A DNA stretch of 64,000 bases. Source: Myxococcales bacterium 68-20. GTDB lineage: Bacteria; Myxococcota_A; Polyangia; Polyangiales; Polyangiaceae. Positions 5,316-63,456 of this stretch are shown in pieces (the first letter of the stretch is position 1; each line of letters opens with the position of its first letter). The stretch spans positions 1 through 64,000 of the forward strand of contig MKVQ01000024.1 in NCBI GenBank assembly GCA_001899635.1. Direction: 5' to 3'. Position numbers and translations under genes: made by a program. Under the pieces are notes generated by a model. That model was given only the letters and a program-made list of their open reading frames with translations, made no database searches and was not told where the DNA came from.

Positions 5316-7526
5316 ATGAAGCACGCCACCTCGAGCATGGCACTCGTCGTCACCGTCCTCGCGGCTCCGCTCGGTGGAGCGTGCGCGGAGCCGCCCCAGC
5401 CGGTGGTCCCGCCCGTCACGACCGCAATTCCGTCGCGTGCGATTCACGAGCACGAGGCGCCCAAAGGCAAGGGCACGAGGCTCATGACCCGCAAGACCGA
5501 CGTCGTCGACACGCTGCACGGGGTGAAGGTCCCCGATCCGTATCGGTGGCTCGAGGACGGCGACTCCGCCGAGGTGAAGGCGTGGACCGACACGCAGAAC
5601 GCACACACGCGAAAGGTCATCGACGCGATCGCAGGACGTGATGCCCTCAAGGGCGAGGTGACCGAGCTGCTCCAGATCGGCTACGTGTCCGCGCCGGCTA
5701 TCCGCCGTGGCAAGAACGGGCTCCGCTACTTCCACACGAAGCGCGAGGGGGCGCAGAATCAGCCGACGCTCTACGTCCGCGATGGTCACGGCGGGAAGGA
5801 CCGCGCCCTCATCGACGTTGCCGCGCTCTCCGATGACGGCACCACCGCGCTCGACTGGTGGTACCCGTCCTGGGACGGACGCTTCCTCGCCTGGGGCAAG
5901 AGCGAGTCCGGCAGCGAGGACAGCGTCCTCCAGATCCGCGACGTCGCGACGGGGACGGACCTGCCCGACAAGATCGACCGCGCCCGCCACGCGTCGATCG
6001 CGTGGCTGCCCGACGGCAAGAGCTTCTATTACTCGCGCTATCCCGAGCCGGGGACGGTGCCGGCAGGTGAGGAGCGCTATCACGCGCGGATCTACCTCCA
6101 CGTCATCGGCACCGACCCGAAGACGGACAAGGTCGTCTTCGGCGAAGGGCGCGACAAGACGGACATCCCGCAGGTGATGATCTCGCCGAACGGCCGCTGG
6201 CTCGTCGTGCGCGTCCACATGGGCTGGGACAAGAGCGAGGTCTACCTGAAGGATCTCTCCAAGGCGGGGGCGCCCTGGACCGAGGTCGCCGTCAAGACCC
6301 AGGCGCTCTTCGAGCCGATCCCGCGGAACGACCGCCTCTGGATCCACACGAACGACGGCGCGCCCCGCTACAAGCTGCTCTCCGTCGACTATACGAAGCC
6401 CGAGCGCGCGGCATGGCAAGAGGTCCTCGCGGAGACGACGGACGTGCTCCACGACGTCGACGTCCTCAAGAACGAGGTCATCGCCACGTACATGCACGAC
6501 GCCTCGTCGCGCGTGGAGCGCTTCTCGCTCGACGGTAAGTCGAAGGGGCCCATCGCGCTGCCCGGGATCGGCTCCGCGAGCGTCTCGAGCATGCACGACG
6601 GCGACGAAGCCTTCGTGGGCTTCACGTCGTACGTGGTGCCGTACCAGGTCCACCGCGTCGACCTCCGGCAGGGCTCGCGTCTCGAGCCCTGGGACCGCGT
6701 CGGTTCGAAGTTCGCCGATCAAGGGATCGAGGTGAGCCAGATCTTCGCGACGTCCAAGGACGGCGCTCGCGTGCCGATGTTCGTCATCGCGAAGAAGGGG
6801 ATGAAGCGCGACGGCAAGAACCCCACGATCCTCTACGGCTACGGCGGGTTCAACGTGAACCAGACGCCCGCGTTCAGCGCGCGCGCGCTCGCGAGCGTCC
6901 AGCGCGGTGCCGTGTGGGTCACCGCGATTCTCCGGGGCGGAGGCGAGTTCGGCGAGGACTGGCACCGCGCGGGGATGCTCGAGAAGAAGCAGAACACGTT
7001 CAACGACCTCTTCGCGTGCGCCGAGACGCTCTTCAAGGAGAACGTCACCGCGCCGGAGCGCCTCGGCGTCATCGGCGGTTCGAACGGCGGCCTCCTCGTG
7101 GCGGCGGCGGTCACGCAGCACCCGGAGATGTTCCGTGTCGGCCTCTCGCTCGTGCCGCTCACGGACATGATCCGCTATCACAAGTTCCGGATCGCGAAGC
7201 TCTGGATCCCGGAGTACGGCGACCCCGACAAGGCCGAGCACTTCAAGTTCCTCCACGCCTACTCGCCGTACCACCGTGCCGAGGACGGCAAGCGGTACCC
7301 CTCGCTCCTCTTCACGACCGCCGAGAGTGATACGCGCGTCGACCCGATGCACGCGCGCAAGATGGCGGCTCGGATGCAGGAGGCGCAGGGTGATCTGGAG
7401 CGTCCGGTGCTGATCCGCGTCGAGACGAAGGCAGGGCACGGCGCCGGCAAGCCGGTGACGAAGCTCGCCGACGAGCTCGCCGACGAGCTGTCGTTCCTCC
7501 TGCACGAGCTCGGCGTGGCGCTGTGA
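5316..7526 (+). CDS. Exported prolyl oligopeptidase (S9A)
   Basis: A 736-residue serine peptidase that cleaves after proline in short peptides. An N-terminal propeller domain begins at VPDPYRWLEDGDSAEVKAW. The catalytic triad is readable: Ser589 in IGGSNGGLL, Asp672 in AESDTRVDP (aligned with D641 of pig enzyme) and His708 in KAGHGAGKP. The ATG at 5316 gives a hydrophobic signal with a marginal lipobox (PLGGAC), so periplasmic or lipid-anchored export is likely. The upstream open frame from 5007 is antisense to surE and repetitive, so it was rejected. Confidence 0.93.
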   Translation: MKHATSSMALVVTVLAAPLGGACAEPPQPVVPPVTTAIPSRAIHEHEAPKGKGTRLMTRKTDVVDTLHGVKVPDPYRWLEDGDSAEVKAWTDTQNAHTRKVIDAIAGRDALKGEVTELLQIGYVSAPAIRRGKNGLRYFHTKREGAQNQPTLYVRDGHGGKDRALIDVAALSDDGTTALDWWYPSWDGRFLAWGKSESGSEDSVLQIRDVATGTDLPDKIDRARHASIAWLPDGKSFYYSRYPEPGTVPAGEERYHARIYLHVIGTDPKTDKVVFGEGRDKTDIPQVMISPNGRWLVVRVHMGWDKSEVYLKDLSKAGAPWTEVAVKTQALFEPIPRNDRLWIHTNDGAPRYKLLSVDYTKPERAAWQEVLAETTDVLHDVDVLKNEVIATYMHDASSRVERFSLDGKSKGPIALPGIGSASVSSMHDGDEAFVGFTSYVVPYQVHRVDLRQGSRLEPWDRVGSKFADQGIEVSQIFATSKDGARVPMFVIAKKGMKRDGKNPTILYGYGGFNVNQTPAFSARALASVQRGAVWVTAILRGGGEFGEDWHRAGMLEKKQNTFNDLFACAETLFKENVTAPERLGVIGGSNGGLLVAAAVTQHPEMFRVGLSLVPLTDMIRYHKFRIAKLWIPEYGDPDKAEHFKFLHAYSPYHRAEDGKRYPSLLFTTAESDTRVDPMHARKMAARMQEAQGDLERPVLIRVETKAGHGAGKPVTKLADELADELSFLLHELGVAL

Positions 7527-7703
7527 GCTGACCGACTGCCGGGACCGCGCGCATGTCGCGGCCCCGGTGGCGCGTCGATCTCGCTCGGCGTGACGCATCG
7601 ATGTCGATCGGCGGTGCCGGAGCAGCCTCACGAGGTCGGTCGTCGCGGCGGCCGGGCGCGGGCGGGCTTCGATCGTCATGCCCGCGAGCGTCCTGCTGGG
7701 AGC

Positions 7704-8126
7704 TCAGGCGCTCTTCGAACGTGGAAGCAGCACCTCGTCGATCGCGTGAATGATGCCGTTGTCGGCTTCGAGGTCAGGGATGACGAGATGCGCGTCGCTG
7801 ACCTCGATCCCCGCAGTGCCTCCCTGGGGCGTGATCCGTAGCGGCTCGCCCCCCAACGTTTGCGACTCTCGTTTCGAGCCCATGTCGCGTGACGAGAGCT
7901 TGGACGCGACGATGTGATTCTCGAGCACGGTCCTCATCCGTTCCGGATCGTCGAAGAGCGCGTCGAGCGCCGCCTCGTCCATCTGCGCGAAGGCCTTGTC
8001 CGTCGGTGCAAAGACGGTGAACGGGCCCCCGTGCTCCAGATTGTCGATGAGGCCAGCCGTCTTTGCGGCTCGCATGAAGCGCTTGAGCGTGCCCGTGGCC
8101 TTCGCGACGTCGACGAGAGTTCCCAT
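7704..8126 (-). CDS. Fasciclin-domain (FAS1) protein
   Basis: A single FAS1 domain fills this 140-residue protein. GPFTVFAPTDKAFAQM (about 34-49) is the H1 block, and IIHAIDEVLLP (about 125-135) is the H2 block. The ATG at 8126 has GGAGG seven bases upstream. No signal peptide is seen, unusual for a domain that normally acts in adhesion outside the cell; many bacterial stand-alone FAS1 proteins of this size start the same way. It converges on the peptidase gene. Confidence 0.9.
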   Translation of the reverse strand: MGTLVDVAKATGTLKRFMRAAKTAGLIDNLEHGGPFTVFAPTDKAFAQMDEAALDALFDDPERMRTVLENHIVASKLSSRDMGSKRESQTLGGEPLRITPQGGTAGIEVSDAHLVIPDLEADNGIIHAIDEVLLPRSKSA

Positions 8127-8397
8127 GATCGCCTCCGTGAGTGAGCTGCCCACGGTGCACGGCGTGTACCCATCTCGAACGCGGAGCGGAGTTGAGGAGT
8201 GAGTCGGCGCGTCGCTCGGACTGCCGCTCGACGCTGCCTTCCCGTCGACACGTGGCGCCACGTGGCCCTCGCGATTCGAGTCCCGCAGTCCGTCGCGCTC
8301 GTTCGAGGTCGCGGACGGTCGCGCAAATGCTTCAGGACTGCACGCCGGATCAGTCTGTTCAGGTGTTTGGTGCCCGCCAAGTACCTACGCAATTCCA

Positions 8398-8449
8398 GTG
8401 ACTTGCAGAAAATCGATCACCATAATTGGACGAATGTTCAGTGCTGAAC
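8398..8449 (+). promoter_or_regulatory. Candidate promoter and dyad operator for the winged-helix gene
   Basis: GTGACT (8398-8403) and CATAAT (8421-8426) form a plausible -35/-10 pair with a 17-bp spacer. The perfect dyad GTTCAG-TG-CTGAAC (8436-8449) lies near the expected transcript start and 13 bp before the ATG at 8463. Autoregulation by the small DNA-binding product is a reasonable inference. The rest of the 8127-8462 gap shows nothing else recognisable. Confidence 0.4.
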
Positions 8450-8462
8450 GTAAGCTCATCTC

Positions 8463-40329: not shown

Positions 40330-40818
40330 CTATCGCGGGAGCTCATAACGTCGCTCAACGTTGGGAGGGTCGAGCGCTGCAAGGTCGTCCTTGCACTGCC
40401 TGGGGGCCTTGCTGTCCGCTCGTAGGACATCGTCCAGTCCACGCAGCTTGTCGATCGTGGCCTGGCGATCCGCGCGCAACGTGACGATGCGTTGCCACGC
40501 GGCTTCTTCGATCCAGGTCTCGGGCGGTCGTGGCTCCGACCGCAAGGAGAAGAAGTTGTCCGCAAGCACCACCGCGGCTCGGCCACGATCACCGACCCGC
40601 GTGTCGCGTTCTGCCGGTCGCCGCTGGCGCGCGGAAGAGCGCGGGCGCTCCGCCGACCAACGCGATGAAATGGAGCTCGGTCTCCCGGCGTTCACGACGA
40701 GGTAGCGGCGCGACGCGCCGCCCGAACCGGGCTCCGCCACGAGCTGGGCGTCCTCCGTCAGCGCCACGTCGACGGAGTAGACAGCGAAGGCCGTCGTCTG
40801 GCTGCTCAGCGGCGTGGC
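40330..40818 (-). pseudogene. Frameshifted hypothetical gene
   Basis: Coding character runs through three pieces. One frame reads TTAFAVYSVDVALTEDAQLV ... RRYLVVNAG (about 40810-40690). A second continues RETELHFIALVGGAPALFRA (about 40690-40630). The first frame resumes with RAAVVLADNFFSLRSEPRPP ... NVERRYELPR and stops at 40330. No start codon precedes the first piece after an in-frame stop. This looks like a gene with compensating indels and a lost 5' end. Its product is not recognised. Confidence 0.45.
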
Positions 40819-41663
40819 CGACGGTCACCATCTGCGCCTGCTCGCCGCGTGGAGATCGTGAGCATGACGCCGCCTTGCCGGGCGCGCGCTTCGGCGTGGA
40901 GCTTCCGCGCGAGATCGAGCGCGTGGATCGTTGCCGCTACACGGTGCTCGACGCCGAGCTTGTCGTAGATGTTCTGCAGGTGCCGGCTCACCGAGTCTGC
41001 GCGCAGCCGGAGGATCTTCGCGATCTCGTCGTTCGACTTGCCCTGCGTGAGCCAGTAGAGCACGTCGCTCTCGCGGGGCGTGAAGCCCGCGCCGGCGAAC
41101 AGGTCCGGCGATACGATCGCGCCGGCGGCCGTGATCGCGAACGCCATTCTGCGTCCGTGCGCCAGGTGTGGTTGGACGAGCGTGAGTAGCTCCTTCTCCA
41201 TGGGAGTGAACGGCCGGCTGTCGCGGAGGAGCCCGACGAACACGGTCGCGCCGGGGCCCGCGGGCACGTGCACGAAACAGTGATCGACGAGGCGCATCGG
41301 CCGATAGACCTCCTGGTAGATGTCGAGGTCACGAAAGGCGGGGCCGCTGTAGAAGTCACGCGCGCTGAAGGGCTTGCCGCCGTTGACCGCAGGGTCGAAC
41401 CGGAACGGCGCATACTTGGCCATGTGCCGGCCGAACGCCTCGAAGGCATCCGCGAGGCCGGGCGGCGCGCAGTCGAAGTTGGCGCTGAGAACGCCTGTCT
41501 CCGCGTCGATGATTCCGTGGCTGTTCAGTGCACCGGGAACGAGGCGCGAGATCAGGGAAAAGGCGCGATCCACGAACGAGTTTGCCGTCAGCCCCGGCGC
41601 GTAGAAGTCCGCGAGCGCGGCGTCTTGCTCGGGCGCGCGGCGTGATTTCCGCAGCACGAGCAC
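40806..41663 (-). CDS. LuxR-type transcriptional regulator
   Basis: The C-terminal helix-turn-helix is complete: FTPRESDVLYWLTQGKSNDE, IAKILRLRADSVSRHLQNIY and DKLGVEHRVAATIHA. The 190-residue N-terminal half contains a possible PAS/GAF-like sensor (FCAPF-like FRFDPAVNGGKPFSARDFYS, VDHCFVHVPAGPGATVFVGL), with no response-regulator aspartate pocket. The GTG at 41663 lies inside a 14-bp perfect dyad, suggesting autoregulation or a misplaced start. Confidence 0.85.
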   Translation of the reverse strand: MLVLRKSRRAPEQDAALADFYAPGLTANSFVDRAFSLISRLVPGALNSHGIIDAETGVLSANFDCAPPGLADAFEAFGRHMAKYAPFRFDPAVNGGKPFSARDFYSGPAFRDLDIYQEVYRPMRLVDHCFVHVPAGPGATVFVGLLRDSRPFTPMEKELLTLVQPHLAHGRRMAFAITAAGAIVSPDLFAGAGFTPRESDVLYWLTQGKSNDEIAKILRLRADSVSRHLQNIYDKLGVEHRVAATIHALDLARKLHAEARARQGGVMLTISTRRAGADGDRRPRR

Positions 41664-41686: not shown

Positions 41687-41940
41687 CGAGCGGGCGCAGG
41701 CGAGCCGCCCGAGCCCGAGGGCCCGGGTGCGGTCGCTCACTACCCGTCGCTCCCCACCAAAGGACTAGATGCGGAGTGGCGTTGAAGCTGCCCGCCGTTG
41801 GATTGCCGAGCTGGCCACTGGTGTTCCTTCCCCAGCAGCGAATCGAGCGATCCGCGAGCACCGCGCAGGAGTGCGCCAGGCCTCCGGCGACGGCGTCGAC
41901 GCCCGACAGTGACGCGACGTTGGCCGCCGTGCAGACCGCC
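41670..41940 (-). pseudogene. Remnant of an RCC1-repeat protein gene
   Basis: The frame reads a single RCC1 blade with the local consensus: GVDAVAGGLAHSCAVLADRS, then IRCWGRNTSGQLGNPTAG and a terminal HLVLW like the VTVLW end of the protein at 49373-51676. The signal peptide, Cys-rich half and six other blades are missing. Upstream it joins directly to the divergent promoter module at about 41940, so an internal deletion removed most of the gene. Confidence 0.7.
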
Positions 41941-41978
41941 CGCAGACGTCGCTCTACCGAGCGTCGCAGATCAGCGGG

Positions 41979-42014
41979 GCCGAGGAGTACGCCTTAAACT
42001 AGGCCTAGGTCCGT
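41979..42014. repeat. Left copy of the 36-bp inverted repeat
   Basis: This 36-bp segment is the perfect reverse complement of 49273-49308. It contains the palindrome CTAGGCCTAG (41999-42008). Weaker inverted homology extends outward over roughly 190 bp, into the 5' region of the RCC1 protein gene on one side and to the edge of the RCC1 remnant on the other. Confidence 0.9.
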
Positions 42015-42146
42015 CTCGCTCCCCGTGAGCTAATGGCGAGGGACGTCTGCGCACGACATCGGGGCGACACTCCGAACGAACGGGGTAAGCCCGGTTCGGC
42101 CTGTGACGAACCCCTCCGGACCGCCCCCGACAGAGGACCGCACACG

Positions 42147-44537
42147 ATGAAGTTGCCTCGGGTCACGACAGCATCCGCCAAGGTCGTCACCGCCACGCTC
42201 GGTCTCCTGGTCGGAGCATGCAGCGTCGATCCCTCGGATGCGCCGGACAGCGAGATCGAGGCCTGGGGCGACGCTGGCGGTGCGGGGACGATCGACGCGG
42301 GGGGCGGCCCGCTGCCCGAGGACAGCGGCGCTTCGACCCGCGTGTGCGTTGCCGGGACGTGGGACCACGACGGCGATCCGACGACGGATTGCGCGGGATG
42401 GACGGAGTGCGAGCCGGGCACCTACGTCACGGGCGCCCCGTCCGCCACGGCGGACCGGCAGTGCGCCGGGTGTCCGAGCGGCACCTTCAGCGCGACCTCG
42501 AACGCCGCGGGCTGCACCACCTGGAGCAACTGCGCGGCCGGCACGTTCGTCAGCGCCGCGCCCTCCGCTTCCGCCGATCGGAAGTGCACGACCTGCACCG
42601 CCGGGACGTTCGCGCCGTCGGCGAATCAATCGAGTTGCTTGCCCGCCGGCGCGTGCGCGGCAGGCACCGAGCAGGCCGCCGCCGCGACGCCGCTCGTGCC
42701 CGCGGTCTGCATTCCGTGTCCACCCGGCACTCACTGCGCGGGCGGCGCTGCTCCGAAGGCGACCTGCGCCGCCGGGACCTGGGACCACGACGGCGCGCCG
42801 GCGACGGCCTGCGTCCCGAAGACGGTGTGCGTCGCGGGACAGGCGGTCGCGCATGAAGGCGCCACGGCCGTCGACAGGACGTGCACCGACTGCACGATCG
42901 GGACCTTCACGTCGACCTCGAACGCGGCGGCGTGCGCGTCCTGGAGGGACTGCGTCCCGGGAAACTTCGTGCAGGTGCTGCCGAGCGCGACCGCCGATCG
43001 GCGATGTGCCCCGTGTGTCGAAGGGACGTACGCGGCGTCGCCGAACCAATTGGCGTGTCTCCCCGCGGGGGCCTGCGCAGCGGGGACGGAGCAGGCGGTA
43101 GCGGCGACGCCGACGGCGCCGCCCGTCTGCTCGGCCTGCGAGCCGGGGACGTATTGCCCCGGCGGCGCGACGCCGAAGCAGACGTGCGCGAACGGCAGCT
43201 GGGACGACGACGGCGACACCAGGACCGTGTGCGCGCCCTGGACGATCTGCGCTCCGGGCAGCGCCGTCGTGGCGAACAGCGGCAGTCCGACGACGAATCG
43301 GACGTGCGCGAGCTGCGTGGAGAGCTTCAGCACGACCGAGAACGTCTCGAACTGCACGCCCTGGAGCACCTGCACGCCGGGCGAGCGCATGAGCGCTGCC
43401 GGGACCACGCTGACGAATCGACGATGTGAGGCTTGCGCCGTCCCCGGTGAGACGACGACCACTCCAAACTCGACGGACTGCGCGGGCGCGGTCGAGATCG
43501 CTGCCGGCTATTTCCACACGTGCGCGCGCATGCTCGACGGCACCGTCCGCTGCTGGGGCGGAAACCGCAACGGCCAGCTCGGGGACGGGTCGACGACCGA
43601 TCGGCGCTCTCTCGTCACCGTCCCCGGTCTCGCTGGTGTCGTCGCGATCGCTGCTGGCAACGACCATAGCTGCGCGATCGTGAACGGCGGCACCGTCCAC
43701 TGCTGGGGAGCCAACGATGCGGGGCAGCTCGGTGACGGCTCGACGATCGAGCGCCGCTCTCCCGTTCCGGTTTCCGGACTCACGGGCGTGACCGCGATCG
43801 CGGCGAGGGGCCGGTATACCTGCGCCGTCGCGAACGGCGCCGTCCAATGTTGGGGCGACAACAGCTACGGTCAGCTCGGCAACGGAACGACGACCCCGTC
43901 GCGCTCGCCCGTAGCGGTTCAAGGCCTTCCGGCTGTCACCGCGGTCGCTGCTGGCGGCATCCACACTTGCGCGATCGTCACGAGCGACGGGTCTCTCCGC
44001 TGCTGGGGCGACAACAGCCTCGGGCAGCTCGGGATCGGGACGTGGGGCTCATGGTCCTTGCCCGTCGCCGTCCTCGGACTCAGCGACGTCGTCTCGGTCG
44101 CCGCGGGCTACTTCCACACCTGCGCCGTCACGAACGACGGTGTCACGTCGTGCTGGGGAAGCAGTGAGTACGGGCAGGTCGGCACGGAGTGGTGGGACAT
44201 GCCGATGAGCCCGCGGCCGCTCCAAGGACTTCCAGCGGCCACCTCCGTGGTCGCCGGTGAACAGCACAGCTGCGCGCGACTTGCCGATGGCTCCGTTCGC
44301 TGCTGGGGACAGAACTACTTCGGTCAGCTCGGTGCCCCCGACATCTGGACCCCCGAAGTACCCGTCACCATCGCCGGGCTCTCGAACGTCACGTCGATCG
44401 CCGCCGGCGCGAACCACGCCTGCGCGCAGCGGGACGACAATACCGTGCGCTGTTGGGGCTGGAACGACAACGGCCAGCTCGGCGACCCGACGATCACGGA
44501 GTGGCAATCTTTTTCGCCGCTGCTCGTCCCCTGGTGA
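42147..44537 (+). CDS. TNFR-like/RCC1 surface lipoprotein 1
   Basis: The 796-residue lipoprotein (signal peptide ending LGLLVGAC) has a Cys-rich N-terminal half of about 10 TNFR/ephrin-receptor-like repeats (CAGCPSGTFSATSNAAGCTT, CEPGTYCPGGATPKQTC) and a C-terminal half from about residue 445 with seven RCC1 blades (for example CARMLDGTVRCWGGNRNGQL), enough for a complete propeller. ATG 42147 leads straight into the signal peptide; an upstream ATG at 42033 adds residues unlike a leader. Ligand unknown. Its 5' region is homologous to that of the EGF protein gene. Confidence 0.85.
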   Translation: MKLPRVTTASAKVVTATLGLLVGACSVDPSDAPDSEIEAWGDAGGAGTIDAGGGPLPEDSGASTRVCVAGTWDHDGDPTTDCAGWTECEPGTYVTGAPSATADRQCAGCPSGTFSATSNAAGCTTWSNCAAGTFVSAAPSASADRKCTTCTAGTFAPSANQSSCLPAGACAAGTEQAAAATPLVPAVCIPCPPGTHCAGGAAPKATCAAGTWDHDGAPATACVPKTVCVAGQAVAHEGATAVDRTCTDCTIGTFTSTSNAAACASWRDCVPGNFVQVLPSATADRRCAPCVEGTYAASPNQLACLPAGACAAGTEQAVAATPTAPPVCSACEPGTYCPGGATPKQTCANGSWDDDGDTRTVCAPWTICAPGSAVVANSGSPTTNRTCASCVESFSTTENVSNCTPWSTCTPGERMSAAGTTLTNRRCEACAVPGETTTTPNSTDCAGAVEIAAGYFHTCARMLDGTVRCWGGNRNGQLGDGSTTDRRSLVTVPGLAGVVAIAAGNDHSCAIVNGGTVHCWGANDAGQLGDGSTIERRSPVPVSGLTGVTAIAARGRYTCAVANGAVQCWGDNSYGQLGNGTTTPSRSPVAVQGLPAVTAVAAGGIHTCAIVTSDGSLRCWGDNSLGQLGIGTWGSWSLPVAVLGLSDVVSVAAGYFHTCAVTNDGVTSCWGSSEYGQVGTEWWDMPMSPRPLQGLPAATSVVAGEQHSCARLADGSVRCWGQNYFGQLGAPDIWTPEVPVTIAGLSNVTSIAAGANHACAQRDDNTVRCWGWNDNGQLGDPTITEWQSFSPLLVPW

Positions 44538-44549
44538 CGAGCACGCGTG

Positions 44550-45221
44550 TCACTTCGCGGCTCCGCTCTTCGGCCCGACGCAGAAGGACGCGAACTTCCC
44601 GAGACCGCCGTTGACGAGCTCGGGAGCGACGCCGAAGCAGCGATCGCCGCCTCCGCATCCTGAATCGTCCGAGCAGGCGCGCTCGCACGTCGCGACCTCG
44701 CCCCAGACGAGCACCTCTCCCTTGGCGCAACGCGCGGCGGCCCTCGGCGCCTTGAGGCTTCCGCCGTCGGCTGCATTGCGAGGAGGCTCACCCGAGAGCG
44801 TTTCGTGGGGCACCCAGCCGTTCAGGCGGGCCGTCTTGTCGAAGGGGTTGCCATAGCTGACGAGCACCCACGATCGCTCGTCCACCTTCGCGCGCGCGAC
44901 GAGGACGACCTCGGTCGACGATGGCAAGAACGCGCTCCTCCGCGTCGACGCAGGATCGAGGCGAACGATCGCCGGGCCGTGGACGAGTCGCTCCTTCGGA
45001 TGGTCGAGCCGCTCCTCGTCGGGAAAGCGCCGGACGAGGTCCGCGTTCACGGCGGGTGGCTCGGGGACGAAGGCGTCCGCGGATGGTGCGGTCATCGCGT
45101 CGCCGGCGAGAGTGCTGCTCGACGTCGCCTCAGGGCTCGCTCCTTGTGGCTTCGCTTCTTTCGAGCACGCGACGAGCAATGCCGAAAGAACCAACGCTCG
45201 TGCTCGTGCCGGTCGGAGCAT
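44550..45221 (-). CDS. Lipoprotein coupled to the EGF protein
   Basis: The ATG overlaps the stop of the EGF protein gene by one base (TGATG). The 223-residue product has a lipobox (ALLVACSKEAK), a central SH3-like stretch (VVLVARAKVDERSWVLVSYG, then TARLNGWVPHETL) and a C-terminal Cys-rich segment (CERACSDDSGCGGGDRCF). The coupling suggests that the two are made in fixed ratio and work together at the surface. It converges on the RCC1 gene with a 12-bp gap. Confidence 0.75.
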   Translation of the reverse strand: MLRPARARALVLSALLVACSKEAKPQGASPEATSSSTLAGDAMTAPSADAFVPEPPAVNADLVRRFPDEERLDHPKERLVHGPAIVRLDPASTRRSAFLPSSTEVVLVARAKVDERSWVLVSYGNPFDKTARLNGWVPHETLSGEPPRNAADGGSLKAPRAAARCAKGEVLVWGEVATCERACSDDSGCGGGDRCFGVAPELVNGGLGKFASFCVGPKSGAAK

Positions 45222-48200
45222 CACTGGAACCGAACGACGACGTAGCCGTTCCTCCCAAGACCGATGTTGGTGGGCACCCAGCCGACCCAGGTGACGGCGT
45301 TGCCGCCATAACCGGGGAGCCAGGTGCCGGTGGGGTAGTCGGGGTCCGCCATGTTCGCAGGGACTTGGAAGTTGCCGGCGATCGTCGTGCCGCCGTTCGG
45401 CGCGTAACCGCCGCCGCCGCCACCGCCGGCGGAGAAGCTGGAGTGTCTGGCGCTGCCGCCGCCGCCGCCGTAGCCACCGCCTCCGGATCCGCCGCACTCG
45501 TGCCCGCCGACGCCGTAGTAACGGGAGGCGACACTGCCGCCCCGTCCGCCGTCGCTCCAATGGGAGCCAGCAGTGGCCGTGCCGTCTTGGTTTGGATCGC
45601 TGCCTGGCGTGCCGCCGACGCCGTTGCCGCCGCCTGTCCCAGCAATCCCAGAGGGCCCCTGAGCGGCCTGACCGGCCTGACCGGCGGTCCCGCCGCCAGC
45701 TCCCGAAGCGCCCGTCGTCGCCGTCGAGCCGTGACCGCCGCCGCCACCGCCCGCGATCGCGAGCCAGTCACCGATCGCGAGATGGCGGGTCGTGCTGAAG
45801 AGCGGGACCCGCACGACCCCCGACATCTGGCCTCCGGTCGCGCCGTCGGTGCAGGTCGAGATCCCTCCGCGCCCGATGTCGTCGACGCCGTTGTATCCCT
45901 CTCCGGGGACCTCGACGAACGCGAGCGAGCCCGCGCCACCGACGATCGCGCCGAACGTCTCGCCCGGGCTCACCGCGGTCGTGCTCGAGCTGAAGCCGCC
46001 GCCGCCGCCGGCGCTGCTCCGATAGCCCATCTCACGGTCGAAGCCGCCGCCGCCACCAGCGCCCCACGCCTTTACCGTCATGCTCGTCATCCCATCAGGA
46101 ACGACGACGGCATTGCTCTCCGTGAGGCGGCAGACGGTGCACATCTCGCCCGTGACGTTCGCTACCGACGAGTACACGCCGGCGGCGTTGCGGGTGAAGA
46201 GACTGTAGTAGTAGACGCCGGGCACCGCGATCGGGTCGGCGAAAGACGTCTCCGTTCCCGGCACGTCGATGAGGAGCGCTCCGTCATCGGGCGTCGTCGC
46301 ATAAGCGGTCGTCGAGCGGAGGATCCGGATCGCTTCGACCGCGTCGGGAGGCAGCTTCCAGCCGAGGACGATCGCGCCGGTCGATGCTCGAAGCTCCGCC
46401 ACGGGACCGCTGCCTGCGATCACGTCACTGCACGTCGGTCCGCCCATGTTGCCCGGACAGCGCGTGAGGACGACGACGACGTGGCCATTGCGTCCCCCGG
46501 TGTTCGCGGGACCGCCGCGCGCGGGGGTCGAGCCGTCGGTGGGATAGAACGGCGAGTCCTCCTCCGCCGCAAAGTAGGCGCCGGCGTTCGTCGTGCGGAT
46601 CGTGAGCCCGTTCGCATTCTTCGCGTAGTGGCCGCCGCCGCCGCCACCGGCCCAGAAGGGCTGCCGACCGAAGGTCGCTCTGCCGGCACCGCCGCCGCCG
46701 TAACCACCTCCGCCCGGACCTCCGCACTGCCCGGCGGAGCACGGGGTGGTGGCGGCGCCCTGGCCGCCATCTGCGAACGCGAGGCCGGGGGGGATATCGA
46801 ACGTGTGCGCGTAGCGCCCGCTGGCGCCGCCCAATCCATTGACGCCTGGCAGGCCCTGTCCGAGCCCGGAACCCGGAGAGCCTCCGCCGCCGCCCGGCCT
46901 TCCGGACCCGAGGCTGCCCGACGCGCCTCCTCCTCCGGCGATGACGCTCCATTCCGAGATGGCCATGGGCACGCCGGAGATTGGCTTTCGGAAGAAGCCC
47001 GACATCTGACCGCCACTGGGAATGAAGTTCTGGTCGGCCGGACCGCCGCGCCCGATGTCTTCGGTCCCGTTGTAGCCGCCGGTGCCCCTGTAGTCGCCGC
47101 CGCGGCCCACCATCGCGCGCCACGTTTCACCCGGAAGGATCCGTCCGTAGCTGGTCGCGTAGCCGCCGCCGCCGCCGTTGGCACCGCCGCCGCCGCCGCC
47201 GGCTCCCCACGCGTGCACGGTGAAGTACGAGAACTGCGGATCGTGGGGGACGTCGGCGCTGGCGGTGAATCGGCGGATGACCCAGCTCGGCGTGAACGAG
47301 ACGCGTGCGGGTATCGAGAACGCCCCCCGCTCATCGTAGGCGTACGCGGCATAGTGGTACGGCGTCCCGAGGACGGCCGTACTGTCGAACACGAATCGCG
47401 CCTTACCGTCGTAGATGACCGTTCCGTCCGTCGGACTCGCGGGAGCCGAGCCTGTCTTTCGAACGATGCGAACTCCGACCAAGTCGAGATCCGCCGGTAG
47501 CTTCCAGTGGAGGCCCACACGCCCGTGCTCGGAGTAGGTGAAATCGATGACCGGCCCGGGCGGCGGGTCGTACGTCGAACAGGTCGCGTCGTAGTACCCC
47601 GTCGCGCACGCGCACGTGAAGCCCAGGAAGTGGTCCGTGCACGTCCCACCGTTCATGCAGGGGTTCGGCGCGCATTCGTCGATCTCGGTGCATACGACGC
47701 CGCTGCCCTCGTAGCCGGCGTTGCACGTGCAGTCGTGCGACCCGGGGGTGTTCGTGCAGGTCGCGTTGACGTGGCAGCCGCCGGCATTGATGAGGCACTC
47801 GTCGATGTCGAGACACGAGGTGCCAGTGCCCCTCCAGCCGGAGTTGCACGCGCATGAGCGGCTGCCGATCGTGTTCGTGCAGGTCGCGTGGGCGTCGCAT
47901 CCACCGTTGTCGGTGAGACACTCGTCGACGTCGTTGCACGTCACGCCGCCGTCGGTCGACGCCCAGCCAGAGGCGCACGTGCAGATCCGACTGCCCACGG
48001 TGTTGGTGCACGTCGCCAGCGGAGAGCATCCGCCGTTGTTGGAGAGGCACTCGTTGACGTCGGTGCAGGTCAGACCGTTGTCGGGCGTCGTGTAGCCGGT
48101 CGCGCACGTGCACGTGCGCGATCCAGGCGTGTTGGTGCACGTCGCCACCGCGGAGCATCCGCCGTTGTTGGTGAGGCACTCGTCGACGTCGGTGCAGGTG

Positions 48201-49210
48201 ATGCCGTCGTCGTTGGTCGTGTACCCGCTCGGGCAGGTGCACGCACGTGACCCCGGCGTGTTGGTGCAGGTCGCGTTCGCCGCGCATCCACCGTTGCTGA
48301 CGAGGCACTCGTCGACGTCGGTGCACGTCACGCCGTCGTCGGTCGTCGTGTGCCCGCGCGGGCAGGTGCACGTGCGCGATCCCGGCGTGTTGGTGCAGGT
48401 CGCGTTCGCCGCGCACCCGCCGTTGTTGGTGAGGCACTCGTCGACGTCGGTGCACGTCACGCCGTCGTCGGTCGTCGCATAACCGTTCGGACAGGTGCAC
48501 GTGCGCGACCCCGGCGTGTTGGTGCAGGTGGCGTTCGCCGCGCATCCGCCGTTCGCGACGAGGCAATCGTCGACGTCGGTGCAGGTGATGCCGTTGTCGG
48601 TCGTCGCATAACCGTTCAGGCAGGTGCACGTGCGCGCTCCCGGCGTGTTGGTGCAGGTCGCGTTCACCGAACATCCGCCGTTGCCGGCGAGGCATTCGTC
48701 GACGTCGGTGCACGTGACGCCATGGTCGGTCGTCGTGTAGCCACGACCGCAGACGCACGTGCGCGAACCCGGCGTGTTGACGCACGTCGCGGCAGCCGAG
48801 CATCCGCCGTTGTTCACGAGGCACTCGTCGACTTCGCTGCAGGTAACCCCGTCGTCGGCCGTCGTGTAGCCGGTCGGGCACGTGCACGTCCGGCCGGCGG
48901 CCGTCTTCGTGCAAGTCGCGAGCGGATCGCAGCCGCCGTTGGCGGACGCGCACTCGGAGTCGTCACCGCCCCCGTCCCTGCGCAGCGATGCATCGTCGCC
49001 CCCTACGTTCGCGTCGCGGCTGGCGCTGGAGGCGTCCTCGGCCGTGCCGGAGTCGTATGCGGTGTTCTCGTCACCGCCGTCGCCGCTCGGCGAAGCGGAA
49101 CACCCGACGAGGAAGAGCGCGCCGACGAGCAGCGCGAGGACCCACCGCGCTCGGCGGTCCAGCGGAGCGGAGGCGTTCGACGCAGGCCGAACCGGATTGG
49201 ACCCGTTCAT
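45221..49210 (-). CDS. EGF-repeat, glycine-rich surface lipoprotein
   Basis: A 1329-residue lipoprotein (lipobox FLVGC). About residues 80-555 hold 11 EGF modules; modules 2-9 follow the calcium-binding form DVDECLTNNGGC ... CTNTPGSRTCTC with a 43-residue period, and the last is a classic DECAPNPCMNGGTC module. Fibronectin-III-like stretches (GPVIDFTYSEHGRVGLHWKL) alternate with two long glycine-rich domains (AWGAGGGGGGANGGGGG and similar) after it. Such proteins are likely adhesins or matrix-binding proteins. The downstream lipoprotein gene is translationally coupled. Confidence 0.85.
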   Translation of the reverse strand: MNGSNPVRPASNASAPLDRRARWVLALLVGALFLVGCSASPSGDGGDENTAYDSGTAEDASSASRDANVGGDDASLRRDGGGDDSECASANGGCDPLATCTKTAAGRTCTCPTGYTTADDGVTCSEVDECLVNNGGCSAAATCVNTPGSRTCVCGRGYTTTDHGVTCTDVDECLAGNGGCSVNATCTNTPGARTCTCLNGYATTDNGITCTDVDDCLVANGGCAANATCTNTPGSRTCTCPNGYATTDDGVTCTDVDECLTNNGGCAANATCTNTPGSRTCTCPRGHTTTDDGVTCTDVDECLVSNGGCAANATCTNTPGSRACTCPSGYTTNDDGITCTDVDECLTNNGGCSAVATCTNTPGSRTCTCATGYTTPDNGLTCTDVNECLSNNGGCSPLATCTNTVGSRICTCASGWASTDGGVTCNDVDECLTDNGGCDAHATCTNTIGSRSCACNSGWRGTGTSCLDIDECLINAGGCHVNATCTNTPGSHDCTCNAGYEGSGVVCTEIDECAPNPCMNGGTCTDHFLGFTCACATGYYDATCSTYDPPPGPVIDFTYSEHGRVGLHWKLPADLDLVGVRIVRKTGSAPASPTDGTVIYDGKARFVFDSTAVLGTPYHYAAYAYDERGAFSIPARVSFTPSWVIRRFTASADVPHDPQFSYFTVHAWGAGGGGGGANGGGGGYATSYGRILPGETWRAMVGRGGDYRGTGGYNGTEDIGRGGPADQNFIPSGGQMSGFFRKPISGVPMAISEWSVIAGGGGASGSLGSGRPGGGGGSPGSGLGQGLPGVNGLGGASGRYAHTFDIPPGLAFADGGQGAATTPCSAGQCGGPGGGGYGGGGAGRATFGRQPFWAGGGGGGHYAKNANGLTIRTTNAGAYFAAEEDSPFYPTDGSTPARGGPANTGGRNGHVVVVLTRCPGNMGGPTCSDVIAGSGPVAELRASTGAIVLGWKLPPDAVEAIRILRSTTAYATTPDDGALLIDVPGTETSFADPIAVPGVYYYSLFTRNAAGVYSSVANVTGEMCTVCRLTESNAVVVPDGMTSMTVKAWGAGGGGGFDREMGYRSSAGGGGGFSSSTTAVSPGETFGAIVGGAGSLAFVEVPGEGYNGVDDIGRGGISTCTDGATGGQMSGVVRVPLFSTTRHLAIGDWLAIAGGGGGGHGSTATTGASGAGGGTAGQAGQAAQGPSGIAGTGGGNGVGGTPGSDPNQDGTATAGSHWSDGGRGGSVASRYYGVGGHECGGSGGGGYGGGGGSARHSSFSAGGGGGGGYAPNGGTTIAGNFQVPANMADPDYPTGTWLPGYGGNAVTWVGWVPTNIGLGRNGYVVVRFQ
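47915..48946 (-). repeat. 129-bp tandem repeat encoding EGF modules
   Basis: The anchor GAGGCACTCGTCGACG or a close variant recurs at 47915, 48044, 48173, 48302, 48431, 48560, 48689 and 48818, exactly 129 bp (43 codons) apart. The units are similar enough at DNA level to allow slippage or unequal recombination that would change module number without breaking frame. Confidence 0.9.
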
Positions 49211-49272
49211 TCGGAATGTCTCCCCGAGATCGTGCGCAGAGGATTCAGCGACATTAGTTCACGGGGAGCGCT

Positions 49273-49308
49273 ACGGACCTAGGCCTAGTTTAAGGCGTAC
49301 TCCTCGGC
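49273..49308. repeat. Right copy of the 36-bp inverted repeat
   Basis: Perfect reverse complement of 41979-42014, with CTAGGCCTAG at 49279-49288. It lies between the divergent EGF-protein gene (start 49210) and RCC1 protein gene 2 (start 49373), so it probably contains regulatory sites for both. No recombinase gene is near either copy. Confidence 0.9.
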
Positions 49309-49372
49309 GCCCCGACCTGCGACGCTCGGCCAGCGACGTTTGTGGACGTCGAGAAGCGACGAGGATGCGATC

Positions 49373-51676
49373 GTGAAGGAACAGATCACGCGCGTTGGTT
49401 CGGCGGCGACGGCGGTCTTCTTCCTGTTCGCTGGCGCGTGCAGCCTCGACGGTTGCAGCGCGGAGCCCTCGGGCTTCCCCAAGGAGACGACCATCCCGAA
49501 CGAGGACGGCGGAGCACCGAGCCCTGACGGCAGTACGCCGGAACGAGACGCCGGCCCTCCGCCGGAGCCAGACGCTGGCGGTGCGGCCTGCGCCGCGGGA
49601 ACGTGGGACCACGACGGAGATCCGGACACGGAATGCGTCGTCTGGTCGACGTGCGAAGCGGGGACTTACGTCTCCGGCGTGCCCTCGCCGACCTCGGACC
49701 GGATCTGCTCCGCCTGCGTCAGCGGCACCTTCAGCGTTGTCCCCAACGCCGCGGCCTGCTCCCCGTGGATCAACTGTCCGGCAGGAAGCTTCGTGACGGC
49801 GTCCGGAACGGCCTCTGCCGACCGTCGATGCGCGCCGTGCGCGGAGGGGACGTACGCGTGGTCCGCGAACCAATCAAGCTGCTTGGCCCCCGACGCATGC
49901 GCGGTCGGGACAGAGCAGCTCGTCCCCGCGGCGCCGGGAGTACCGCCGATCTGCGCTCCGTGCCCCGCAGGTACGCACTGCGCCGGCGGCGCAGCTCCGA
50001 AGGAGGAGTGCGCCAGCGGGACATGGGATCACGACGGGTCTCCAACGACGGCGTGCATCGCGAGGACGGCATGCATCGCTGGCCAGTCGGTCGCCGCCGA
50101 GGGCAGCGTAACGACGGACAGGACGTGTGCGTCCTGCACGAGCGGGACGTTCAGCACGAGCTCGAACGCGCCGCGCTGCGCAAGATGGCGCTCCTGCGAG
50201 GCGGGCACCTTCGTGAGCACTGCGGGGAGCACGACCGCCGATCGGCAATGCACGCCCTGCGACGAGGGGACGTACACGTCATCGTCGAACCAGGCCGTGT
50301 GTCAGCCTCCGGGAGCGTGCGCCGCCGGGACCGAACACGTCGCTGCGAGCACCCCGACATCGCCGACGATCTGCGCGCCGTGCGAACCGGGGACGTATTG
50401 TCCCGGCGGTGTCACGCCGAAGCAAACGTGTGCGACGGGCACATGGGATGATGACGGCGATCCCGGGACCGCGTGCGTGGCCTGGACGACCTGCACGGCG
50501 GGCGAGAAGGTGGCGACGGGCGGCTCTCGGACGGCGGACCGTACGTGCGAGGCGTGTTCGGGCTCCTTCAACACGACGTCGAACGCCGCGACCTGCACGA
50601 CGTGGAGGACCTGCGCGCCGACCACCTACGTGACCGCCGCCGGCACCGCGCTCACGGACCGGCAGTGCGCGCCGTGTGCCGCCGGAGTCACGACGACGAC
50701 GGCGAACTCCACGGCATGCGCGGGTGCCGTCGAGGTCGCGGGCGGCTACGCGCACACCTGCGCGCGCATGACCGACGGCTCGGTCCGCTGCTGGGGACGC
50801 AACCAGAATGGCGTGCTCGGGCCGCCCACCGGTGTGACCGGTGCGACCGCGCTCGCCGTCGGCGCCGAGCACACCTGCGCGATCATGGAGGACACGACCC
50901 TCCGCTGCTGGGGAGCCAACCACTACGGCCAGCTCGGCGACGGAACGACGAACCACACTGCCAATCCGGTCACCGTCCTGGGGCTCTCCGGTGTCGTCGA
51001 GGTCGCCGCTGCGGACGGCCACACCTGCGCCCGCATCAGCGACGGCAGCCTTCGCTGCTGGGGCTGGAACGGCTTCGGCATGCTCGGCGATGGAGCGTAC
51101 ATGAACCGTTCCTCTCCCTTCACCGTCCCCAATGTCACCGGCGTCGTCGGGCTCGCTGTTGGCTACGGCCATACCTGCGCGATCCTTGCCGACAGGACCG
51201 TCCGCTGCTGGGGAGCAAACCAGAACGGCGAGCTCGGCAACGGAACGGTCTCCGATGTCGTTGCGCTCGCCTGCGGCCGGTCCCACACGTGCGCGCTCCT
51301 GAGCGATACGACGGTCCGCTGCTGGGGGAGCAACGTTCAGGGCCAGCTCGGGAACGGAACGACGACCACGGGGCCCACGCCTGTCGCGGTCTCCGGGCTC
51401 ACGGGGGTGACCAAGCTCGTCGCCGGCAGCAACCAAACATGCGCCCGCTTGCTCGACGGCTCTGTCCATTGCTGGGGTGACACCACCACGGGCTGGTGGT
51501 CCGTGCCTCAAAAGGTCTCTGGGCTGTTCGGAGTCGACACGGTCAACGTGGCCCCGTATCACGCCTGCGCGGTCATGGCCGATCGCTCCCTTCGTTGCTG
51601 GGGAAACAACGCGTTCGGCATGCTCGGCGATGGAACGACGACAAACCGGACGTCCCCGGTGACTGTCCTCTGGTAG
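49373..51676 (+). CDS. TNFR-like/RCC1 surface lipoprotein 2
   Basis: A 767-residue paralogue of the protein at 42147-44537, with the same order: signal peptide (TAVFFLFAGAC, lipobox-like), acidic linker, TNFR-like Cys-rich half (CASCTSGTFSTSSNAPRCAR, CEPGTYCPGGVTPKQTC) and seven RCC1 blades (CAIMEDTTLRCWGANHYGQL), ending SPVTVLW. The GTG at 49373 follows GAGGA by 9 bases. It is divergent from the EGF gene across the inverted-repeat module. Confidence 0.85.
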   Translation: MKEQITRVGSAATAVFFLFAGACSLDGCSAEPSGFPKETTIPNEDGGAPSPDGSTPERDAGPPPEPDAGGAACAAGTWDHDGDPDTECVVWSTCEAGTYVSGVPSPTSDRICSACVSGTFSVVPNAAACSPWINCPAGSFVTASGTASADRRCAPCAEGTYAWSANQSSCLAPDACAVGTEQLVPAAPGVPPICAPCPAGTHCAGGAAPKEECASGTWDHDGSPTTACIARTACIAGQSVAAEGSVTTDRTCASCTSGTFSTSSNAPRCARWRSCEAGTFVSTAGSTTADRQCTPCDEGTYTSSSNQAVCQPPGACAAGTEHVAASTPTSPTICAPCEPGTYCPGGVTPKQTCATGTWDDDGDPGTACVAWTTCTAGEKVATGGSRTADRTCEACSGSFNTTSNAATCTTWRTCAPTTYVTAAGTALTDRQCAPCAAGVTTTTANSTACAGAVEVAGGYAHTCARMTDGSVRCWGRNQNGVLGPPTGVTGATALAVGAEHTCAIMEDTTLRCWGANHYGQLGDGTTNHTANPVTVLGLSGVVEVAAADGHTCARISDGSLRCWGWNGFGMLGDGAYMNRSSPFTVPNVTGVVGLAVGYGHTCAILADRTVRCWGANQNGELGNGTVSDVVALACGRSHTCALLSDTTVRCWGSNVQGQLGNGTTTTGPTPVAVSGLTGVTKLVAGSNQTCARLLDGSVHCWGDTTTGWWSVPQKVSGLFGVDTVNVAPYHACAVMADRSLRCWGNNAFGMLGDGTTTNRTSPVTVLW

Positions 51677-60950: not shown

Positions 60951-61694
60951 ATGTTGAATCGCCCCGCCCACATCCCCGCCGCCGTCACCCAGGCCCCGCT
61001 CACCTTCCCCTGGAGCAACGAGATCTCGCTGCGTCTCGACAACTTCGACGCAGTGCCGCCGCGACTGGGGAGGGCGCTGGCGAAGGTCGACTACAAGGGC
61101 AAGATGGCCCTCGCCCTGGGCTGCCTGGAATGGGTGGTCTGGCGCCTGTCGGGCTGGACCGATGTGCAGGACCCGCTGCAGCGGATCGAAGCGGCCTGGG
61201 CCTCTCAGGTGTCCGTGGCCTATGCACGCAGCCTGGACCTCGAGAGCGTGCGCGACGACCTCACCGCGCCCGGCGACCCCGCCGGGCCGCTTCAGGAGGC
61301 GCTGATCCGCCTGGAGATGCTGCACCTGATGTACCGCAAGGGTAAGCCGGAGATGACCGTCCAGGCCGGCCTCTGCGCGCTGCTGGCCTTCCATGTGTTG
61401 CCGCCCGACAGCGGCTTCGAGGCCTGGCTGGAGAAGGCGCTGGTCGCGATGGCCGACACCGATCCCTGCGGTCCCGACTTCGACCGCCGCGCCAGCCGCT
61501 TCGACTACAGCGGCGAAGCGGCGGTGCCCCGCGCCTGGCTCGATGACCTGAGCGTGCCGCGCGATCCGGCGGCCGCGCCCGCGGACTGGAACGCCTTCTT
61601 CACGGCCGCCGATCCCGCGCGCAATCCGTTCCTCGTGCCCGCCGACGAGATGCGCGCGCAGGGCTTCGTCGGCGAGCCCTACGTCTTTTCCTGA
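60951..61694 (+). CDS. Unknown-family protein, copy 1 (possible immunity protein)
   Basis: The 247-residue soluble protein (PLTFPWSNEISLRLDNFDAV, KGKMALALGCLEWVVWRLSG, NPFLVPADEMRAQGFVGEPY) has no recognised domain. Leucine is encoded mainly by CTG, unlike the CTC-rich host genes around it. Copy 2 at 62677-63456 is nearly identical, and the protein at 61751-62524 is a distant member of the same family. Tandem divergent paralogues after gene 3' remnants resemble immunity-gene arrays, but no toxin is identified. Confidence 0.75.
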   Translation: MLNRPAHIPAAVTQAPLTFPWSNEISLRLDNFDAVPPRLGRALAKVDYKGKMALALGCLEWVVWRLSGWTDVQDPLQRIEAAWASQVSVAYARSLDLESVRDDLTAPGDPAGPLQEALIRLEMLHLMYRKGKPEMTVQAGLCALLAFHVLPPDSGFEAWLEKALVAMADTDPCGPDFDRRASRFDYSGEAAVPRAWLDDLSVPRDPAAAPADWNAFFTAADPARNPFLVPADEMRAQGFVGEPYVFS

Positions 61695-61750: not shown

Positions 61751-62524
61751 ATGAGCCACCCGCTCCATTCGTTCGCCGACCTGAACGGCTATGACCGCGG
61801 AGGAATTCGCTACCTCTGGAGCGACGCCCGCGCGAGCAAGGACTTCGCCTGGTCGACGGACGAGGTGGAATCCCTCGCGGTCCGGGCGGCGCCCGCCAGC
61901 CTGCGATCGCGACTGGGCCTGTGCGTCGCGCTCTACGAGGTGGTGGTGGCCCGGCTGCGGGAGCTGCACGACGATCCCTATCCCGCCCTGGTCGTTGAAT
62001 CGGCCTGGCTGAGCCTGGCCGATCGCCGCTACCTGGAGTTCGACGAGCGGGCTCGCGGCGACTGGCTCGGGCCGGTCCGCGGGCCGCTCTGGTGCGGCTT
62101 CACCTGGCTGACGCCGGCGCTGCACGAGGCGGATGACTCGCCATCGGAATGGGAGTCGGCATTCGTGTATCTGGCGCGGCTTGCCCACCATCTGCTGCCC
62201 GAGGCCGCTCATGCCGCCTACCGCGCCTGGCTGGAGGGCTGCATCGACCGGATCGTCCTGCATCATCCGGCGCCGGTCGTGCGACCGACCGAGGACCTCT
62301 TTGGTCGATGGACGGAATGGCGGCGCGGCCCCTATGTCACCGCGGCCTGCTTCGATCTCAGGACGCCCTACGATCCCACCGCCGAGCATGACCGGCTGGA
62401 GCACCTGCTGCAGTCCGCGGACATCGCCGAGAACCCGCTGCTGAAATCACCCGCGGCGCTGGAGGAGGAAGGGTTGGACCATCCCTATCAGGCACTGCCG
62501 CCTTACGACGGATTGAAAGGCTGA
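61751..62524 (+). CDS. Unknown-family protein, divergent member
   Basis: The 257-residue protein (GIRYLWSDARASKDFAWSTD, LGLCVALYEVVVARLRELHD, FVYLARLAHHLLPEAAHAAY) shares a helical pattern and the ending ENPLLKSPAALEEEGLDHPY with its neighbours' NPFLVPADEMRAQGF ending, so all three belong to one family. CTG-rich codon use matches copy 1. ATG 61751 follows copy 1 by 56 bp. Function unknown. Confidence 0.7.
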   Translation: MSHPLHSFADLNGYDRGGIRYLWSDARASKDFAWSTDEVESLAVRAAPASLRSRLGLCVALYEVVVARLRELHDDPYPALVVESAWLSLADRRYLEFDERARGDWLGPVRGPLWCGFTWLTPALHEADDSPSEWESAFVYLARLAHHLLPEAAHAAYRAWLEGCIDRIVLHHPAPVVRPTEDLFGRWTEWRRGPYVTAACFDLRTPYDPTAEHDRLEHLLQSADIAENPLLKSPAALEEEGLDHPYQALPPYDGLKG

Positions 62525-62625: not shown

Positions 62626-63416
62626 TGATGTGAGCCTCGCGCCGTCTTCATCTCCTTCGTTCGGATCCTCCTCCCCATGTTGAATCGCCCCGCCCACATC
62701 CCCGCCGCCGTCACCCAGGCCCCGCTCACCTTCTCCTGGAGCAACGAGATCGCGCTGCGTCTCGACGACTTCGACGCAGTGCCGCCGCGACTGGGGAACG
62801 CGCTGGAGAAGGTCAACTACAAGGGCAAGATGGCCCTCGCCCTGGGCTGCCTGGAATGGGTGGTCTGGCGTCTGTCGGGCTTGACCGATGTGCAGGACGC
62901 GCTGCAGCGGATCGAAGCCGGCTGGGCCTCTCAGGTGTCCGTGGCCTATGCGCGCAGCCTGAACCTCGCGAGCGTGCGCGACGAACTCACCGCGCCCGGC
63001 GACCCGGCCCGCCCGCTGCAGACCGCGCTGATCCGCCTGGAGATGCTGCAGCTGATCTACCGCAAGGGCAAGACGCAGATGATCTCCATGTCCGGCCGCT
63101 GCGCGCTGCTGGCCTTCCATGTGCTGCCGCCCGACAGTGGCTTCGAGGCCTGGCTGGAGAAGGCGCTGGTCGCGATGGCCGTCACCGATCTCTGCGGTCC
63201 CGACTACGACCGCCGCGCCCGCAGCTTCGACTACAGCGGCGAAGCGGCGGTGCCCCGCGCCTGGCTCGATGACCTGAGCGTGCCGCGCGACCCGGCGGCC
63301 GCGGCCGCCGACTGGAACGCCTTTTTCACGGCCGCCGATCCCGCGAGCAATCCGTTCCTCGTGCCCGCCGACGAGATGCGCGCGCAGGGCTTCCCCGGCG
63401 AGCCCTACGTTTTTGA
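62626..63416 (+). repeat. Second copy of a 0.79-kb duplication
   Basis: Sequence 60900-61690 recurs at 62626-63416 with a constant offset of 1726 bp and no visible indels, including the 40-bp leader before the start codon (TGATGTGAGC...CATCTCC). Copy 2 diverges after the codons for GEPYV, where the stop is replaced by a 15-residue extension. Confidence 0.9.
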
Positions 63417-63456
63417 AGCCGCACCAAGCGGCCCGCGGACCGGCCCGAGCCAGTAG
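62677..63456 (+). CDS. Unknown-family protein, copy 2
   Basis: The 259-residue protein is about 90 percent identical to copy 1 by eye (PLTFSWSNEIALRLDDFDAV, GKMALALGCLEWVVWRLSGL). It ends with an extra FEAAPSGPRTGPSQ instead of the short VFS ending. CTG-rich codon use continues to the stop, after which host-like CTC codons return. Substitutions relative to copy 1 are scattered, so both copies appear to be under constraint. Function unknown. Confidence 0.75.
   Translation: MLNRPAHIPAAVTQAPLTFSWSNEIALRLDDFDAVPPRLGNALEKVNYKGKMALALGCLEWVVWRLSGLTDVQDALQRIEAGWASQVSVAYARSLNLASVRDELTAPGDPARPLQTALIRLEMLQLIYRKGKTQMISMSGRCALLAFHVLPPDSGFEAWLEKALVAMAVTDLCGPDYDRRARSFDYSGEAAVPRAWLDDLSVPRDPAAAAADWNAFFTAADPASNPFLVPADEMRAQGFPGEPYVFEAAPSGPRTGPSQ

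Follow-up and report, generated by a model that had tools for sequence, protein, structure and literature searches.

Duplicated upstream regulatory regions are a general phenomenon of paralogous gene families. Invertons are a different arrangement, in which DNA lies between short inverted repeats (about 10-40 nt) that are acted on by an invertase (PMC11892184). Proteins with RCC1 repeats are known from myxobacteria, and MXAN_0889 is such a protein of outer membrane vesicles (PMC4158809); a literature search for Labilithrix together with RCC1 found nothing. Here, we analysed a stretch of 64,000 nucleotides, the window, from contig C24 (179,790 bases) of Myxococcales bacterium 68-20, whose genome comprises 11.9 Mb in 52 contigs. 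A perfect inverted repeat of 36 bp, with a left arm at 41979-42014 (plus strand) and a right arm at 49273-49308 (minus strand), is present exactly where the sequence-only reading had placed it. These arms are the longest perfect inverted repeat of the window, and from the base composition about 7e-11 inverted-repeat pairs of 36 bp are expected. Searching the whole genome with up to 3 mismatches revealed no copies beyond the two arms, and likewise the 23-bp inner part of the repeat has just two genomic copies. The wider homology, claimed to span about 190 bp, was recovered over about 187-189 bp at 82% identity in a gapped alignment, and without gaps it consists of two blocks, 63 nt with 92% identity and 79 nt with 81%. 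We refer to the homologous regions as modules: M1 (41937-42124, plus strand) is the upstream region facing RCC1-A, and M2 (49162-49348, minus strand) is the upstream region facing the EGF gene and takes in its first codons. The window holds a second perfect inverted repeat of 28 bp (62061-62088 and 63427-63454) among tandem genes. There, 60951-61694 and 62677-63456 encode proteins (247 and 259 aa) that by eye are closely similar, with the gene 61751-62524 sitting between them; an NCBIfam scan of the proteins encoded at 60951-61694 and 61751-62524 gave no match.

The gene content between the modules is as previously read, namely an RCC1 lipoprotein gene, an EGF gene and a coupled lipoprotein gene. 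RCC1-A (42147-44537, plus strand) encodes 796 aa with TNFR-type Cys-rich and RCC1 repeats (Pfam) and a lipoprotein-like N-terminus, the lipobox being judged by eye. The EGF gene (45221-49210, minus strand) encodes 1329 aa with about ten EGF-type repeats (Pfam) and a glycine-rich C-terminal half, and its N-terminus, again by eye, is also lipoprotein-like. The third gene (44550-45221, minus strand; 223 aa) is called lipoprotein-like from inspection of its N-terminus, and no Pfam or NCBIfam family matched its product. Its start codon, ATG, has one base in common with the stop codon of the EGF gene, and the two genes are predicted to be translationally coupled. Outside M2 lies RCC1-B (about 49373-51676, plus strand; 767 aa), with RCC1 and TNFR-type repeats (Pfam). 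Outside M1, all that is left of the outer gene is about 54 codons from its 3' end, the RCC1-C remnant (41745-41929, minus strand), so that in the window the left module is not the functional divergent promoter that had been proposed. The fragment's reading frame extends beyond the end of the intact gene. RCC1-B and RCC1-C are paralogues at 63% aa identity, and each reaches only 49-51% with RCC1-A. RCC1-A has 321 matches at E <= 0.001 in its own genome, counted as matches and not as genes, and the RCC1 repeat family has undergone a large expansion within this single bacterial genome. Next to the remnant follows a LuxR-type (GerE) regulator gene (40806-41663, minus strand; Pfam PF00196).

A relative of the same genus, the Labilithrix MAG G003, carries the segment as well. 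We searched 301 bp of module DNA against 38 genomes (the own genome, 11 of the genus, 12 others of the family and 14 of the order), and among the matches listed G003 alone, besides the own genome, gave strong module matches (E 1.6e-103 and 5e-46). G003 also has a 30-base match (3.3e-5), which corresponds to the RCC1-C remnant, and the remaining matches listed have E >= 0.00296. Counting only alignments above 80 bits, the segment 41937-49339 aligns to G003 over 7.4 kb at 88%, and the RCC1-A and EGF orthologue pairs are 81-82% identical at the aa level. The gene order in G003 is LuxR-type, glyoxalase-family, M2, EGF, lipoprotein, RCC1-A (reverse), M1 and RCC1-C; read on the minus strand, the window has RCC1-B (reverse), M2, EGF, lipoprotein, RCC1-A (reverse), M1, the RCC1-C fragment and LuxR-type. 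RCC1-C is intact in G003 (765 aa), and the remnant matches this orthologue at 90.9% nt and at 87% aa over 54 residues; about 2.1 kb that precede the counterpart of the remnant in G003 are missing from the window. At 41745-41752, where the RCC1-C fragment adjoins the upstream region of the LuxR-type gene, the two alignments with G003 share 8 bases, which resembles a microhomology-mediated join. The outer side of M2 in G003 holds the 3' end of the glyoxalase-family gene and no outer RCC1 gene. No RCC1-B orthologue was found in G003, neither beside M2 nor elsewhere, the best match being RCC1-C at 73% nt; since this MAG is incomplete (96%, in about 380 contigs), the result falls short of absence. 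Either G003 may have lost RCC1-B or the lineage of the window may have acquired it. The homology of the window's M2 with M1 of G003 continues into the outer genes (49162-51486, 74% nt). We considered RCC1-B as the orthologue of RCC1-C in G003 and rejected this, as the two share 63% aa, less than the 81-82% of the RCC1-A and EGF orthologue pairs or the 87% of the remnant. The LuxR-type gene (90% nt) is the sole other gene that was seen to accompany the segment in window and G003 alike. Its strand sense is unchanged, but the two genomes have it at different ends of the cluster, so that the order is permuted; in G003 the LuxR-type and glyoxalase-family genes are located directly upstream of the EGF module (7099-8462 of G003:C327:32001-52000). 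Other window flanks with strong matches fall on the separate G003 contigs C69, C112, C344 and C343, and 30 kb of G003 compared with the window outside the cluster gave a single 50-bp match.

The four module copies, two in each genome, allow conclusions on age and on selection, with gapped columns omitted from all counts. In all 12 gap-free columns in which the copies split two versus two, M1 pairs with M1 and M2 with M2, and in none do the copies group within a genome. This indicates that the modules were duplicated before the two species diverged, with no conversion visible since. The "inverted promoter modules" of the sequence-only reading are supported in that the two upstream regions are homologous and share a core conserved by selection; their promoter activity is predicted. 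This core comprises 49 bp (41987-42035, plus strand, in M1; 49252-49300, minus strand, in M2), in which 46 of 49 columns are invariant in the four copies, compared with 82 of 126 outside (Fisher p=4.9e-5, a value somewhat flattered because the border between core and flank was drawn by eye after alignment). The longest invariant run spans 28 columns; when a uniform rate was simulated, 582 of 100,000 trials produced a run of this kind. Conservation of the core does not follow the outer genes. The M1 cores of window and G003 are identical at 49/49 positions, although the outer gene of the window is a fragment, and the M2 cores at 47/49, without an outer RCC1 gene in G003. Hence, the core is independent of an intact outer gene and probably serves the inner genes, RCC1-A on one side and EGF plus lipoprotein on the other. 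M1 also keeps an in-frame relic of the first 16 codons of the EGF gene, with 9 of 16 residues the same, in which ACG replaces the start codon in both genomes. This suggests that M1 was derived from an EGF-type upstream region; alternatively, a start codon may have been gained in M2. Homology beyond the core, an age before the split and better conservation of the core are in line with a duplicated region that was kept by selection.

The explanation that we consider probable is an old inverted duplication in which the 49-bp core was kept as a promoter/operator co-expressing both inward transcription units. Among the readings considered this one fits best, and it corresponds to an alternative already noted from the sequence, a plain duplication with shared promoter elements. 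The inverted duplication would have carried an outer RCC1-type gene together with the shared upstream region, in favour of which are the closeness of RCC1-B to RCC1-C and the homology that continues from M2 of the window and M1 of G003 into the outer genes. The core would then act as the predicted promoter/operator of RCC1-A and of EGF plus lipoprotein, reading inward, and the two units would be expressed together through the same core. An intact outer gene is unnecessary at either module, RCC1-C being fragmentary here and RCC1-B not found in G003. The invariant 28-base run contains the palindrome CTAGGCCTAG, a plausible operator, and the linked LuxR-type regulator is a candidate for binding the core. 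A scan of M1 and M2 with the sigma-70 consensus, which covers this promoter type alone, detected no sigma-70-like promoter. The core could also be another conserved element, for example a protein-binding or recombination site. All comparative evidence comes from two genomes with two module loci each.

A narrower version, which we regard as possible but rather improbable, is a two-site regulon, in which the LuxR-type regulator would bind the 28-bp stretch and thereby switch on RCC1-A, EGF and lipoprotein, with cluster and regulator co-inherited despite extensive shuffling of the genome; the permuted order possibly arose by excision and reinsertion or by tandem duplication with loss. A sequence model built from the four module copies and run with strict filters on 108 genomes of the family gave, among the matches listed, just four strong places (E <= 1.2e-34). 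The next best match after the four copies has E=0.003, and some match at E <= 1 occurs in 103 of 108 genomes, which we take as chance. At five RCC1 paralogue loci of the own genome, drawn from the 321 matches, module matches cover at most 22 bases, which is chance level. With no further core copies in the own genome at up to 3 mismatches and no further strong module matches in the 108 genomes, the promoter/operator reading of the core has no regulon-wide motif as backing. Relatives of the lipoprotein (E <= 0.001) occur in 16 of the 108 family genomes, including the two with the cluster, and at 18 of 22 other places with such relatives the short stretches searched contain no EGF or RCC1-A homologue (1e-5).

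Recombination between the modules has to be weighed against the old duplication. The sequence-only reading had seen a possible surface-variation switch. As a switch, a crossover would flip the 7.3-kb segment and change the surface genes that are expressed. A long inverted repeat does enclose surface-protein-like genes, and its 36 bp fit the 10-40 nt given for the repeats of invertons (PMC11892184). However, the 36 bp are identical in the two cores, and a crossover there would leave each gene with an equal promoter, so that inversion would not change promoter supply; on the left, moreover, the outer "gene" of the window is a fragment. That no recombinase gene is nearby had been noted before, and for three families this extends to the 180-kb contig: of the 6 Phage_integrase, 5 Resolvase and 2 IS110 matches in the genome, covering tyrosine and serine recombinases and IS110 transposases, none is on contig C24, although an enzyme of another family or one encoded elsewhere could act on the repeats. 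Comparison of orientation with relatives speaks in the same direction, as relative to RCC1-C the segment is oriented alike in window and G003, the sole relative found with the locus (1 of 1), and no inversion was seen; this agreement is weak alone, because free flipping would produce it half the time. Together with the 12 of 12 orthologous sites, these observations leave the switch unsupported, and we consider it very unlikely. Another explanation is that homologous recombination has on rare occasions inverted or otherwise rearranged the locus at its modules in the course of evolution, with no part in regulation; the cluster ends would then be prone to rearrangement. The two genomes do differ at both ends: the window has a truncated RCC1-C, no RCC1-B was found in G003, and the LuxR-type gene lies at one end in the window and at the other in G003, with its strand sense unchanged. 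In addition, both G003 alignments include the 8 bases at the junction of fragment and LuxR-type gene. However, the segment itself is not inverted in G003, and the genes around the cluster have been extensively reordered between the genomes anyway, so that the cluster ends may not be special. We judge this explanation unlikely as well.

Concerted evolution would account for the repeat differently, with gene conversion between the modules keeping the core identical, and a perfect 36 bp inside modules that are otherwise 82% alike would fit it. The informative sites contradict it, since 0 of 12 group within a genome, and we rejected gene conversion as the source of the perfect repeat on this ground, bearing in mind that only 1 of the 12 sites is in the core, with 11 on the inner side and none on the outer side. 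The core is also near-identical across the two species, which indicates selection over conversion. We consider this reading very unlikely.

With an old duplication and a selected core as the favoured reading, a suggestive inversion switch becomes a pair of co-regulated candidate promoters with a candidate operator and a candidate regulator. The genes concerned encode surface proteins with eukaryote-like repeats (EGF, TNFR-type, RCC1), and they come from a myxobacterial genus that has been little studied. For genome scans the locus is a caution, as selection on a duplicated promoter core can yield a perfect inverted repeat around surface genes.

Among the described systems, MXAN_0889 shares RCC1 repeats with the proteins of the window and has a predicted extracellular role (PMC4158809). 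A difference is that the window's RCC1 proteins also bear TNFR-type Cys-rich repeats. Compared with invertons as portrayed in PMC11892184, the cluster is alike in the length of the inverted repeats and in their position around surface-protein-like genes. It differs in that the contig carries no invertase of the tested families, promoter-like cores are inside the repeats, the arms are about 7.2 kb apart, and the orientation is the same in the one relative compared here. With upstream duplications of paralogous families the cluster shares homologous upstream regions that have a conserved core and precede co-located genes. It differs from them in that the core was found at no other place searched and in that the genes between the two facing copies, RCC1 on one side and EGF on the other, are unlike.
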